This document shows positions 1 to 5,725 of a stretch of 33,276 nt of DNA, piece after piece (within the stretch, counting starts at the first letter, position 1; each line of letters begins with the position of its first letter). The notes under the pieces were generated by a model that was given only the letters and a program-made list of their open reading frames with translations, did not search any database and had not been told where the DNA came from. The stretch comes from Caryophanales bacterium. GTDB lineage: Bacteria > Bacillota_I > Bacilli_A > RFN20 > CAG-826. Where the stretch lies: contig JAQYER010000059.1 of the NCBI GenBank assembly GCA_028723545.1, positions 1 to 33,276 of the forward strand, in the 5' to 3' direction. The position numbers were made by a program, and so were the translations under genes.

Positions 1-2
1 TG

Positions 3-74
3 ATTTTATCAAAATCACATGCACGTACGCAAGTATTTTTTGAATTTACCGATTATGAAATAGATATTATTTAA
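3..74 (+). CDS. C-terminal end of an unrecognised plus-strand gene (partial)
   Basis: An open frame runs from the window edge to a TAA and encodes about 23 residues ending in a mixed aromatic and acidic stretch (FFEFTDYEIDII). The frame has no start here, so it would be the tail of a gene lying outside the window and converging on the metal ATPase gene. The residue mix looks protein-like, but the piece is too short to assign a family. The other two plus frames close sooner. It could also be chance reading of AT-rich DNA. Confidence 0.4.
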   Translation: MLSKSHARTQVFFEFTDYEIDII

Positions 75-149
75 TTTATTAAATAAAATAAAAATAATTT
101 GTTATATTTTTTGAATTTTTTTCTCTCGTTTTTGCATCTTCATATGTAA

Positions 150-203
150 AAAATAAAACACCCGACTATCCCTAATTCATTTTTAGAAGAAGTGTGGGTG
201 TTT
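150..203 (-). terminator. Rho-independent terminator after the metal ATPase gene
   Basis: On the minus strand AAACACCC pairs with GGGTGTTT across a loop of about 32 nt, and a T-rich run (TTTTATTTTTT) follows. It begins six bases past the ATPase stop codon. The long loop is atypical, but the GC-rich stem followed by a T tract is convincing. The plus-strand reading has a poorer tail, so ending of the converging gene is less certain. Confidence 0.75.
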
Positions 204-208
204 AATTG

Positions 209-2362
209 TTATTTAATTTTTCTAATCAAAATTGATAATGAATGAAGAGTCATTATGATTGTTAATGGAATGTCCGCTAAAACCATGATGATTCCGATAT
301 ATTCACTTAATGATTGAACAAATATAATAAGTATCGCTGCAATGAATTTTAAGGCAAGAGTAACAATGATATTTATTAAAACTGTTCGATTAGTAATTTG
401 TGAAATTTTAATCGCTTCATAAATAGTTCCTGGATAATGTTTCATCAAGACAATATCAGAAGCATTAACTGCGTTATCAGCGCCTAATTCACCATTTGAA
501 ACCCCAATATCCGCTACTTCAAGGCTTGGAACGTCGCTATTATCAAATCCGGCGACAAGAATGTTCTTTTTGCCTTTTTTCTCTAATGCTTCTTTTACCA
601 ATTTTTGTTTACCTTCAGGATTTAAATCGGCATAACATTTTTCAATTTGAAGAATTTTTGCTAATACATCAGTGTTTGATTGACTATCTCCAGACATCAT
701 CACTACTTCAATACCTAATTTATGAAGATTTTGAACAAGCGGTTCAGCTTCATCGCGAATATATTCATATAAAACAACATACCCTCTATACATTCCATCA
801 ACCGCTAAATATACCAAAATTCCTTCTTCATTTGGTTTTTCAAATTCAATACCAACTGAATTCAAAAATTTATAAGAACCAGCAATAATTGAATGATTAT
901 CATAACGAGTTTTAACACCATATCCTGGAACTTCTAAATAATTTTCTTGAACCGCTCCTAAAGAGGCAATGTCTTGGCCATAACATAATGTTCTTGCAAT
1001 TGGATGGGCGCTTCTTGATTCGCAAGCAATCATATATTCGGCAAATAAATTGTCTTCAATATTAATTGGTACAACTTTTGCAATTTGGAAATCAGAAAAA
1101 GTTAATGTTCCTGTTTTATCAACAAATACAGTACCAACTTTAGATAATTTATCTAATATGTTCGCACCTTTAATAATAATCCCATATTTCATCGCTAAAG
1201 CGGATGAAGATGTATACGCTAAAGGAACGGAAATAACAATCGCACATGGGCAACCGATTACTAAAATTAATAATCCTTGATGAAGAGAATAAGCCCAATT
1301 TTGAGTAACTAATCCAAAAATTAAGAAAACAATTAATCCTAATCCTAAAATAATTGGAGTGTATATATGGGCAAATTTGGTAATAAATTTATCGCCTTTT
1401 CCTTTATGTTCTCCACTATTTTGAATCATCTCAATTGATTTAGATATTTGAGTATCGTTAAATAATTTAGTGACTGATAAAGTAATTGTTCCTTCTTTTA
1501 ATATTGTTCCACCAAGAATATTCATATCTTTTTGTAAAGATAATAAATTAGAATCGCCAGTAAATGATGAAGTATCTAAAAATCCACTTCCATCAAGAAT
1601 TATTCCATCAACTGGAACGATTTCTCCTTCATTAACGATAATTTGATCACCGATTTTTAATTCATCTGGGCTAACTTTGCTAACACCATTATCATCAATC
1701 CTATTAGCGAATTCCGCTCTTTTATCAATGACGCTTGCGATAGTGCTTTTTGCTTTTGTTGTAGCGAATTTTTCAACTAATTCTCCAACTTGATATAAAG
1801 CAACAACCATACATCCATCAAAGAAAGCTGGCTCTAAATCAGAAGGGACTAAATAAGATAAAAACATTCCAGCAGCGAATATTACCATCAATAAATTCAT
1901 ATCAACAGGGTTTTGCTTCTTAATAATGTTCATGAATAATCGATATATAATATCGTAAATAATAATCGCTAAAGCGAGGCAATATAAAATAATTCCATAT
2001 GGAACAAATAATTGCTCAAAATGTTCTTCAAAAACAAATTTGGCAACAAACATTAACAATAATGAAACAATGACTCTTGCTAATAAGATCCATTCTTTTT
2101 TAGTGAATCCTTTTTTATATGTTCTTTTGCGATATGCTTTTTCTAATTCAACATGAATAATACTTCCATCAATACGACCAATTAATTGGTGGATTTCATC
2201 TAGCGTTAATGGTTCATCCTTATATGTGATAAATAATTTTTCATTATTCACATCGATATTAACGCTTAAAATTTTGTCATTATTTGACAATATATCTTCT
2301 GCTTTAGTCGCGCACGCTAAACAATCGAATCCTTCGATATGATAAATAATTTTCTTTGCCAT
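209..2362 (-). CDS. P1B-type heavy-metal-transporting ATPase (Zn/Cd/Pb CadA/ZntA-like)
   Basis: Predicted membrane pump that would export divalent metal using ATP. The 717 residues fit the family. In order: an N-terminal HMA-like domain with GFDCLAC (Cys14 and Cys17), paired membrane helices from about residue 90, an actuator domain, the CPC metal-binding motif in a helix near residue 370, the phosphorylation motif DKTGTLT near 415, the SxHP nucleotide-site motif near 450, and two final helices ending in a DIPLT...HSL segment that recalls the Zn/Cd subgroup. Several signatures depart from consensus: the actuator TGES reads TGDS, the TGDN-like site reads SGDS, and the hinge GDGxND reads GFDNSD. 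The gene follows the nusG terminator. No Shine-Dalgarno is visible before the ATG. Substrate is inferred, and activity is uncertain because of the motif changes. Confidence 0.88.
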   Translation of the reverse strand: MAKKIIYHIEGFDCLACATKAEDILSNNDKILSVNIDVNNEKLFITYKDEPLTLDEIHQLIGRIDGSIIHVELEKAYRKRTYKKGFTKKEWILLARVIVSLLLMFVAKFVFEEHFEQLFVPYGIILYCLALAIIIYDIIYRLFMNIIKKQNPVDMNLLMVIFAAGMFLSYLVPSDLEPAFFDGCMVVALYQVGELVEKFATTKAKSTIASVIDKRAEFANRIDDNGVSKVSPDELKIGDQIIVNEGEIVPVDGIILDGSGFLDTSSFTGDSNLLSLQKDMNILGGTILKEGTITLSVTKLFNDTQISKSIEMIQNSGEHKGKGDKFITKFAHIYTPIILGLGLIVFLIFGLVTQNWAYSLHQGLLILVIGCPCAIVISVPLAYTSSSALAMKYGIIIKGANILDKLSKVGTVFVDKTGTLTFSDFQIAKVVPINIEDNLFAEYMIACESRSAHPIARTLCYGQDIASLGAVQENYLEVPGYGVKTRYDNHSIIAGSYKFLNSVGIEFEKPNEEGILVYLAVDGMYRGYVVLYEYIRDEAEPLVQNLHKLGIEVVMMSGDSQSNTDVLAKILQIEKCYADLNPEGKQKLVKEALEKKGKKNILVAGFDNSDVPSLEVADIGVSNGELGADNAVNASDIVLMKHYPGTIYEAIKISQITNRTVLINIIVTLALKFIAAILIIFVQSLSEYIGIIMVLADIPLTIIMTLHSLSILIRKIK

Positions 2363-2430: not shown

Positions 2431-3006
2431 TTAATTAACTTTTTCAATAGATGCAAATTCAACTTCAGTTGGAGTTTCTGAACCAAAGAAGATGAGTGAT
2501 ACAGTGCAAAGGCCATTTACACGGTCAATATTTGTAATTGTTCCTTCAATTCCTTCAAATGGACCATGGATAATTTTAACGAGGTCACCTTCGTTATAAC
2601 GATCATACATTGATGAATCAATTTTACCAACTCTTTTGAGAACTGGTTCCATTTGTTCTTTAGTAACTGGAGATGGTTTTTGACCTCCACCAGCTGATCC
2701 AGCAATACCTGTTACATCTGGTGTATTACGAACGATATACCAAATTTCATCAGTCATAATCATTTCAACAAAGATATATCCTGGATAGAGGTTTACCATT
2801 CTTGTTTTTGGATTACCTTTTTTATCATATTGAGGCACTCCATCGCGAATGACAGGTACTTCTTCTTCGCAAACAACAACATCAAGAATACGATCGCCTA
2901 ATCCCATTGTTTCAACTCTTTTTAAAAGGTTGTCAGCGACTTTGCGTTCATGTGTTGAATATGTAGTAACAATGTACCATTGTTTTTCTGCTAAATTCTT
3001 TTCCAT
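2431..3006 (-). CDS. nusG: Transcription termination/antitermination factor NusG
   Basis: NusG binds the RNA polymerase clamp and influences pausing, termination and transcription-translation coupling. The 191-residue protein has the NGN domain (WYIVTTYSTHERKVADNL near the start, then NLYPGYIFVEM) and a C-terminal KOW domain (VKIIHGPFEGIEGTITNID). The NGN domain carries a short insert around residues 45-70, common in Gram-positive versions. An AGGGGA ribosome site precedes the ATG. It is the last gene of rpmG-secE-nusG. In most Bacilli rplK and rplA come next, but here a terminator and a metal ATPase follow instead. Confidence 0.97.
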   Translation of the reverse strand: MEKNLAEKQWYIVTTYSTHERKVADNLLKRVETMGLGDRILDVVVCEEEVPVIRDGVPQYDKKGNPKTRMVNLYPGYIFVEMIMTDEIWYIVRNTPDVTGIAGSAGGGQKPSPVTKEQMEPVLKRVGKIDSSMYDRYNEGDLVKIIHGPFEGIEGTITNIDRVNGLCTVSLIFFGSETPTEVEFASIEKVN

Positions 3007-3021
3007 TATTCAATTCCCCTA

Positions 3022-3282
3022 TTATTTCAATAAAAATAATTTAATTGCTTCCGCAACTGAACTGCTATTTTCAGTATTTCCAGAAACAGATAAATCTTTA
3101 AATATTTCTTTAATTTGTTGGATTAATGATCCAGCTGCCCAGTCTTCTAATGATAAAAATAAAGCAGCGACAACACAAACGACGAGAACAGCAACTAAAG
3201 CAGGAATAAATTCTTCTCTCTTTGGCCATCTAACACGTTTGCCTTCTTTGATTACTTCTTGTGCGTATTTTTTAACACCCAT
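3022..3282 (-). CDS. secE: Preprotein translocase subunit SecE
   Basis: Small essential subunit that clamps SecY in the plasma-membrane translocon. The 86-residue protein has the amphipathic SecE start (EVIKEGKRVRWPKREEF, typical of the family) followed by one hydrophobic helix (about residues 27-47). A strong AGGAGG site precedes the start. The C-terminal tail after the membrane helix is longer than in many single-helix SecE proteins and is Ser/Asn-rich before a final helical stretch. It sits between rpmG and nusG as in Bacillus. Its partner SecY is encoded in the ribosomal operon of the same window. Confidence 0.95.
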   Translation of the reverse strand: MGVKKYAQEVIKEGKRVRWPKREEFIPALVAVLVVCVVAALFLSLEDWAAGSLIQQIKEIFKDLSVSGNTENSSSVAEAIKLFLLK

Positions 3283-3293
3283 GGTAATACCTC

Positions 3294-3443
3294 CTATTTG
3301 CTTTCTTTATGCAAAGTATATTTATTGCATTTCGGACAAAATTTACTTATTTCAAGACGAGTTGAATTCCCTTCAACTTTTTTAGTTGTTGTGTAATTCC
3401 TACTTAAGCATTCAGGGCAAATTAAAAGAACTTTCTTTCTCAT
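3294..3443 (-). CDS. rpmG: 50S ribosomal protein L33 (zinc-binding type)
   Basis: A 49-residue ORF too short for the supplied track. The translation starts [12 protein letters not shown] and ends with [15 protein letters not shown], giving the two CxxC pairs of the zinc-ribbon (C+) form of L33, with the typical NYTTTK stretch between them. An AAGG ribosome site lies about 10 bases upstream and a consensus promoter lies 26 bases before the ATG. The stop falls in the secE ribosome-site region, so rpmG, secE and nusG form one transcript, the conserved order of Bacilli. Confidence 0.95.
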
Positions 3444-3468
3444 ATAGTTTCAACCTTCTTGTGCGTTA

Positions 3469-3497
3469 ATTTTAATCTAAAAAAATTATTGTGTCAA
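3469..3497 (-). promoter_or_regulatory. Sigma-A promoter for rpmG-secE-nusG
   Basis: On the minus strand TTGACA (3492-3497), a spacer of exactly 17 bases, then TAAAAT (3469-3474). This is a perfect -35 box and a 5/6 -10 box, about 26 bases upstream of the rpmG start. It separates the rpmG-secE-nusG transcript from the sigma-H-like gene. Confidence 0.85.
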
Positions 3498-3515
3498 TAT
3501 GATTCAATTGAATTG

Positions 3516-3575
3516 ATTTTATATGTCTCTTATAAAGTGTTTAAAATTTTATATGTCTCTTACAAAGTGTTTAAA
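3516..3575. repeat. Two-copy 30-bp tandem repeat upstream of the rpmG promoter
   Basis: The unit ATTTTATATGTCTCTTAYAA...TTTAAA occurs twice head to tail (3516-3545 and 3546-3575) with one T/C difference. On the minus strand each unit contains AAGAGACATATAAAAT, and TTTAAA lies 16 bases before TATAAA, so each copy could act as a weak promoter. The near identity in non-coding DNA suggests recent duplication or selection. It may also be part of a dispersed repeat family. Confidence 0.8.
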
Positions 3576-3620
3576 AAAATTTATTTATATAAGAATAATA
3601 TTTATTCAATCACATAGAAA

Positions 3621-4229
3621 TTACTTTAATAAAATTTTAATATCATTTAGTACTGTACCTTCTTTATCATCTTCCAATAATCTTCTTACTTGAGCGACTG
3701 AGATTTTTAATTTTTCAGCAATTTCATTAATTGTGTAGCCATCTTTTTTTAATTTTAATACTGTGGCTTGGTTACTATTTTTTCCTTTTTTTCTACTTGG
3801 ACTAGATAAAATCAAATTTAATTGATTTAATTCATAATTTTTTCGCGGATCTTCATCGTTAGAGCCAACAATATCATGAAAAGTCGAACGAGTTGATATT
3901 TCGGAATCTAAATTAATGGGGTTCATTGATATACATTCTTGTTGATATTTATCAATTAATTTAAGTAAATCTCTAACAAATATCGTTCTAAATAAAACTC
4001 TAATAGGACACCCATATTGATAATGTGAAAAAGTGGTTAATATATCTTGGTACGCTAAACAATAAGCGTCTTCAACATCAAAACCTTTAATGTTATTTTG
4101 CGTTAATACATTGTAAATTATTCCTTTCGCGCACGTAAAAAGACGATTAACTAATTCGTTGTAGACTTGTTGATTTCCACGCGCTGCTAATCGATATAAT
4201 TGTTCGTCAGAAGCCGATTCAAATGACAT
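3621..4229 (-). CDS. Sigma-70 family factor, SigH-like by sequence and position
   Basis: Probable alternative sigma factor that would direct RNA polymerase to a special promoter set. The 202-residue protein has a region-2-like segment (about residues 10-95) with DVEDAYCLAYQDILTTF, matching the DIVQEG...AIRDF part of SigH, followed by a basic helix (VRDLLKLIDKYQQE). A C-terminal region-4-like helix-turn-helix (GYTINEIAEKLKISVAQVRRLL) follows. Its place between rlmB and rpmG-secE-nusG is the position of sigH in Bacillus, which supports orthology. Sequence is quite diverged. It starts 7 bases after the rlmB stop with no Shine-Dalgarno, suggesting translational coupling. The Rae1/YacP gene usually before sigH is missing. 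Confidence 0.75.
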   Translation of the reverse strand: MSFESASDEQLYRLAARGNQQVYNELVNRLFTCAKGIIYNVLTQNNIKGFDVEDAYCLAYQDILTTFSHYQYGCPIRVLFRTIFVRDLLKLIDKYQQECISMNPINLDSEISTRSTFHDIVGSNDEDPRKNYELNQLNLILSSPSRKKGKNSNQATVLKLKKDGYTINEIAEKLKISVAQVRRLLEDDKEGTVLNDIKILLK

Positions 4230-4984: not shown

Positions 4985-5725
4985 TTAAAATTCAGTTGAT
5001 ATTTTGATATCTAAAGGATGGGAAGTTAATTTAATTTCATCAATAAATTCAATGATTGTTGATTCTCTTGCAGGAGCAATACGGATAGAAACTCTTATGT
5101 ATTGTTCATTTTGATAATTGATTAATTGAGATTCAGTATCTTTAATGTTGATTGAGAAACGATTAGCGACTTGTAATATTTCTTTTAAGATTGGTTGATT
5201 TGGGCTACATACAATAATAATCATTGGATTATGTCTTGAAGCAACACGTTCAACGCGTCTTAAAGAAACGAGCACAAATAGCATAATTAACGTTGCAAAT
5301 ATACAAATAATTAAATTACCACTTCCAGCGCATAAACCAATCGCCATTGAGCCCCAAATTGTTGTTGCAGTTGTTAAACCTTTAATATCAGAACCATTTT
5401 GAATAATTGTACCAGCGCCTAAAAAACCAACACCAGTAACTACTTGGGCTGCTAAACGGGCTGGATCTCTTGTAGCAGCGTTTAATCCACCAAAACCAAA
5501 CATTGAAATGTACATAATTAAACATGAACCAACCGCAACTAAGACGTGGGTACGAAGACCAGCACTATGACCGCGATATTCACGTTCAAATCCTAATGCA
5601 CCACTACAAAAAATAGTAATAAGTAAGCAAACAACACCAAAAAGAACTACTCCCCAACCATTTCCATTAAAAAGGTTAGAAAACCATTCAGTAATTTTGT
5701 AATCAATTGGAACAATTTGATTCAT
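4985..5725 (-). CDS. MgtC/SapB family membrane protein
   Basis: Inner-membrane protein of the MgtC/SapB/YhiD family, linked in other bacteria to growth at low magnesium and to acid or envelope stress; its biochemical role is unsettled. The 246 residues contain an N-terminal membrane domain of about 4-5 helices with family signatures (GALGFEREYRGHSAGLRTHVLVAVGS, then AAQVVTGVGFLGAGTI and GLTTATTIW) and a C-terminal ACT-like cytoplasmic domain from about residue 165. A strong AGGAGG site precedes the ATG. It sits between cysS and rlmB, where Bacillus carries mrnC (mini-ribonuclease III), so it appears to have been inserted into a translation operon. Confidence 0.93.
   Translation of the reverse strand: MNQIVPIDYKITEWFSNLFNGNGWGVVLFGVVCLLITIFCSGALGFEREYRGHSAGLRTHVLVAVGSCLIMYISMFGFGGLNAATRDPARLAAQVVTGVGFLGAGTIIQNGSDIKGLTTATTIWGSMAIGLCAGSGNLIICIFATLIMLFVLVSLRRVERVASRHNPMIIIVCSPNQPILKEILQVANRFSINIKDTESQLINYQNEQYIRVSIRIAPARESTIIEFIDEIKLTSHPLDIKISTEF

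Follow-up and report, generated by a model that had tools for sequence, protein, structure and literature searches.

What has become of a heavy-metal pump that keeps its metal site and its phosphorylated Asp but reads GFDNSD where the catalytic loop should read GDGxND? The question is raised by an ORF at 209–2,362 of the window (the whole 33,276-nt stretch of DNA analysed, from a metagenome-assembled genome (MAG) of a Caryophanales bacterium). The ATPase ORF and the features of its locus are given in window positions and lie on the reverse strand.

Family and genomic context of the window ATPase

The ORF has an ATG start and 717 open codons, with zero stops or frameshifts, and encodes a P1B-2-type (Zn/Cd family) heavy-metal P-type ATPase homologue of 717 aa with a degenerate catalytic loop. 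Pfam profiles identify E1-E2_ATPase, Hydrolase and N-terminal HMA domains. The protein scores 385.7 bits against TIGR01525 (heavy-metal P-type) and 315.8 bits, barely above the cut-off of 313.5, against TIGR01512 (Cd subfamily), for which two canonical comparators, the sister orthologue L009 of genome G012 and L002, a second CadA encoded in the same genome as the window ATPase, score 424.5 and 467.7, respectively. The top PDB match by sequence is the Zn2+-ATPase ZntA (4umv), and an AlphaFold2 model (input of 37 aligned sequences; mean pLDDT 84.6) has a complete P1B fold, with Zn and Cu P1B ATPases as its best PDB matches. In the tree, the protein lies inside the CadA clade of its genus (100/100; 24 genomes in the collection used), as sister to L009 (84/82). 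It is also the syntenic orthologue of the canonical arsR-linked CadA of the genus, as most congeners inspected have the order secE-nusG-arsR-P1B-rplK-rplA around this pump. By descent, on the basis of tree and synteny, the window ATPase is thus a P1B-2 (ZntA/CadA) protein.

The ORF list and synteny place the conserved neighbours secE (3,022–3,282) and nusG (2,431–3,006) upstream. The ATPase follows nusG after 68 bp, arsR being missing between them, and the only ArsR in the genome akin to the missing regulator adjoins L002. In G020 arsR is also absent from the nusG locus, yet the pump is canonical, so arsR loss alone does not predict decay. At the other end of the gene, comparison of contigs shows that the end of contig C59 (window 1–278) overlaps contig C20 (L041:1–278), which continues into rplK-rplA, with about 5% divergence. 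This suggests that the MAG contains two or more strain alleles, with a break at the ATPase-rplK junction. Over the last 22 ATPase codons, the sole overlap within the gene, C20 differs from the window by two synonymous and no nonsynonymous changes, and the encoded protein is identical.

Catalytic and metal-site motifs

A reading of the sequence alone had described a P1B ATPase with intact CPC and DKTGTLT motifs, and profiles and alignment bear this out. The N-terminal HMA metal-binding motif GFDCLACA (residues 11–18; 2,309–2,332; alignment and Pfam HMA), the membrane CPC metal site (residues 371–373; 1,244–1,252), DKTGTLT with the phosphorylation acceptor D415 (1,100–1,120), the N-domain His-Pro of the nucleotide site (residues 453–454, in HPIA; 1,001–1,006) and K585 are all intact. 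P1B-2 pumps are further recognised by N(x)7K in TM7 and DxG(x)7N in TM8, their membrane metal site being formed by the CPC cysteines and the TM8 Asp, partnered by the TM7 Lys (PMC6305203). In the window ATPase N(x)7K is intact (N664–K672; 347–373), whereas DxG(x)7N (242–274) is reduced to its Asp (D697), with G699P and N707H; His at the last position is also seen in some congeners. Metal binding by the protein is plausible, since CPC, D697 and K672 are kept.

The catalytic loop is a different matter. GFDNSD (residues 605–610; 533–550; context AGFDNSDVPS) replaces GDGIND, with D606F, G607D, I608N and N609S. The Asp-to-Phe and Asn-to-Ser changes had been correctly pointed out; G607D is a third within the loop. 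D606, G607 and N609 are each invariant in 111 of 111 homologues (113 were aligned, two partial sequences ending before the loop; 80 database loci were fetched by two scan patterns, one adjoining the GDGxND loop and the other elsewhere). The first Asp is known from classical work as D703 in SERCA and D710 in the Na,K-ATPase. In the actuator, TGDS (residues 268–271; 1,550–1,561) stands for the canonical TGE(S/P), as had also been reported; E270D is unique, this Glu being present in 113 of 113 homologues. GDGxND is described as essential both to coordinate Mg2+ and to carry out phosphorylation, with TGE mediating dephosphorylation (PMC13322241, PMC10779151). A literature search for mutants of the first GDGxND Asp in P1B pumps found none among the papers covered.

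Three independent motif changes had been proposed, the third being SGDS (residues 557–560; 683–694) in place of TGDN. This motif is ordinary for the clade: same-genus orthologues have SGDK or SGDT, and among homologues the first residue is T or S and the fourth varies freely among N, K, R, S, A and T. GFDNSD and TGDS remain, and further broadly conserved sites are altered as well (G388A, G423S, D533E, M623N, D642H and G699P). Within the catalytic segment 603–630, 4 of 10 broadly conserved sites are changed, compared with 7 of the 44 outside it (Fisher p = 0.19), and targeted loss of the GDGxND loop is not shown statistically.

Compared with ZntA/CadA P1B-2 ATPases (Shigella sonnei ZntA, 4umv/4umw; TIGR01512), the window ATPase has the HMA, E1-E2 ATPase and HAD domains, CPC, N(x)7K, the TM8 Asp, DKTGT and HP in common, but differs in GFDNSD for GDGIND, TGD for TGE and the reduced DxG(x)7N. 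The nusG-locus CadA proteins of the same genus (L009 and about a dozen others; 42–45% identity) differ from it in that their catalytic motifs are canonical and most of their genes have arsR next to them. The earlier suggestion of an alignment with homologues, which might have revealed changes shared by a clade, gave the opposite result: no congener has them, and a clade-wide loop variant was rejected. A search of GTDB contigs for a sister species, with the window protein alone as query, returned zero matches; with the alignment as query it returned L112 (43% identity, canonical motifs). L039 and L040, with many deviating sites, were rejected as parallels, being distant (28–29% identity) and apparently of the Cu-type branch.

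Conversion of GDGIND to GFDNSD requires at least five clustered nonsynonymous changes across four codons, with the frame kept. Shifted frames, read informally for a compensating frameshift, did not contain GDGIND. An alignment allowing in-frame indels, GGA[TTT]GAT--AAT[AGC]GAC, keeps the order G, D, N, D with changed spacing, the Asp-to-Asp distance being 3, down from 4 in GDGIND. That alignment speaks for an altered but working pump whose remodelled loop would bind Mg2+ through D607 or D610, with Zn/Cd export being slow or under different regulation. Such a pump would account for retention of the membrane metal site, D415, HP, K585 and SGD, and the human protein ERMA, discussed below, is reported to be active without the loop. 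We nevertheless consider it unlikely, given the lack of variation at D606, G607 or N609 among ~111 homologues, the shortened spacing and the several other conserved sites altered. In the AlphaFold2 model, moreover, the P-domain strand ends at residue 604 and F606 appears to fall in the following loop, where the Asp normally sits.

Evolutionary rate, decay and retention

Eight other orthologues from the genus share 236 invariant sites, of which 70 (29.7%) are altered in the window ATPase; the same leave-one-out counts give 0.6–7.3% for the other orthologues. The acceleration is specific to the ATPase gene, because SecY (window species 4.4%, others 0–4.1%) and NusG (15.5%, others 0–14.5%) show little or no excess. 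On the tree, the tip branch leading to the window ATPase has a length of 1.41 changes per site and that leading to L009 a length of 0.50.

This gene-specific acceleration across the whole gene supports the original view of an altered enzyme over a single sequencing error. It had been argued that canonical motifs in homologues would imply sequence errors; all homologues are indeed canonical, but error does not follow. An error of sequencing or assembly might be suspected, as there is a single assembly, with a strain break where the contig ends beside this gene. It is nonetheless very improbable, as divergence is gene-wide with an intact frame, the loop has clustered substitutions and not frameshifts, and contig C20 carries the same divergent C-terminus.

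Another alternative, which we regard as possible though not favoured, is gene decay: having become redundant after the second CadA and lost its regulator, the gene would now be an unexpressed pseudogene, still open by chance. A raised, gene-specific rate at conserved sites is what relaxed constraint on a pseudogene would produce, and the altered sites are scattered across nearly all domains. The loss of arsR, the presence of a second canonical CadA in the genome and the lack of a pump at the nusG locus in congeners carrying an L002-type CadA all point the same way. Expression signals are equivocal. No Shine-Dalgarno sequence is found upstream of the ATG, and an 11-pair hairpin (2,374–2,402), preceded by TATAAT (2,405–2,410), ends 11 nt before it. 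Such a hairpin might terminate transcription or form part of the 5′-UTR of a transcript from TATAAT and, with the absent Shine-Dalgarno, may mean that the ATPase gene is silent; however, nusG, rlmB, tgt and other window genes equally have no clear Shine-Dalgarno.

Against decay, the frame is undisrupted over 717 codons in spite of the long branch. In simulations with AT-biased mutation, 50 unconstrained substitutions left a stop-free frame in ~3% of runs (a stop arising in ~97%) and 100 substitutions in 0.3%. Simple neutral decay therefore fits poorly, as a stop is almost certain to arise within 50 neutral substitutions. For six independent neutral changes to fall in the loop stretch within so short a phase, the probability is ~2 × 10⁻⁶, so that the loop changes would be hardly compatible with a short neutral phase if independent, a single complex mutation being the escape. 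Of the broadly conserved sites, 43/54 (80%) are retained, and the GC content by codon position (0.42/0.30/0.19) is like that of neighbouring genes. At unanimous sites change is less frequent at second (12.3%) than at third (26.9%) codon positions, with few third positions informative. The two synonymous and no nonsynonymous differences from the strain allele also argue, weakly, against decay. From the open frame, the kept sites and the codon-position composition, the gene probably encoded a retained protein over most of its divergent history and may still be under selection, the evidence coming from one species and a single MAG.

Candidate roles beside a second CadA

The second CadA, L002, encoded on contig C128 next to an arsR of its own, has canonical motifs throughout (TGES, TGDN and GDGIND). 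Within the genus it is matched most closely by proteins of G006 and G014 (58–59% identity), neither of which has a P1B gene between nusG and rplK. In G014 that interval (L107:1717–3847) holds two unrelated genes, for an acidic protein and a membrane protein with CxxC pairs. Two other contigs of the window genome, C138 and C55, carry copper-type P1B fragments (L003 and L004), which look like alleles or halves of one CopA. A slow pump or metal sensor had been suggested for the window ATPase; loss of pumping by this protein, with Zn/Cd export covered by L002, fits the genome better.

Our best explanation, held tentatively, is that the window ATPase is a lineage-specific pseudo-pump that would bind metal and nucleotide but form a phosphoenzyme poorly or not at all, with Zn/Cd exported by L002. 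Of three signatures of catalytic competence, DKTGT with D415 is present, and GDGxND and TGE are lost. Without D606, the catalytic Mg2+ would not be held beside D415, which would be phosphorylated poorly or not at all, with ATP-driven export lost or very slow as a consequence, and E270D would further slow dephosphorylation. Zn/Cd export would fall to L002 with its own ArsR, and the window protein would persist as a membrane protein that binds metal and nucleotide. Overall, the gene is probably a retained pseudo-pump and possibly a dying gene; a working pump is less likely.

Degenerate P-type proteins are known from eukaryotes. Human ERMA/TMEM94 has GSSANL for GDGVND and no TGES, with the acceptor Asp kept, and is reported to transport Mg2+ (PMC13322241), although it has also been argued not to be a P-type Mg2+ ATPase (PMC12134183). 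Like the window ATPase, it is a natural protein of P-type fold that has no GDGxND and retains the acceptor Asp; unlike it, ERMA/TMEM94 is eukaryotic and of another subfamily, with an occluded nucleotide pocket, TGES wholly absent and DKQGI instead of DKTGT. Given the reported transport by ERMA, inactivity may not follow from the missing loop. The P4-ATPase-like domain of PfGC alpha, an apicomplexan guanylate cyclase, has a degenerate GDGxND (PMC6592433), likewise inside a retained P-type domain, but it is fused to guanylate cyclase and belongs to a eukaryotic P4 lineage. A limited literature search found no bacterial precedent for a P-type ATPase with degenerate GDGxND.

A more specific version of the pseudo-pump, in which selection maintains the protein as a bacterial P1B pseudo-ATPase that binds Zn/Cd in the membrane but does not pump, serving as sensor, buffer or partner, is in our view rather doubtful. 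With the Mg2+ loop shed and the metal and nucleotide sites kept, it would be the prokaryotic equivalent of degenerate P-type proteins such as ERMA/TMEM94, a parallel that we regard as equally doubtful. The retained metal site is the sole feature that would suggest a sensor; no fused or adjacent signalling domain or partner was found, and the ancestral ArsR is gone.

GDGxND counts as a loop that P-type ATPases cannot do without, and whether the human exception, ERMA/TMEM94, is active is disputed. The window ATPase would offer a single-subunit bacterial case, with metal site and acceptor Asp kept, in which it could be tested directly whether a P-type pump completes its cycle when the first Asp of GDGxND is missing, and canonical same-genus orthologues would serve as controls. 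It looks like a pump between redundancy (a second CadA) and loss (absence in two congeners).

Next to the secE-nusG pair, the window encodes a sigma-factor-like protein with a resolvase-type HTH (3,621–4,229), which has weakly conserved counterparts in relatives. Between this gene and secE, G012 and G011 have an Mrp/NBP35-type P-loop gene (L042:2162–2983) that is missing from the window (3,282–3,621). The cysS and rlmB genes, adjacent in G012 with no MgtC-family gene between them, are separated in the window by a gene for an MgtC-family membrane protein (4,985–5,725; Pfam PF02308).
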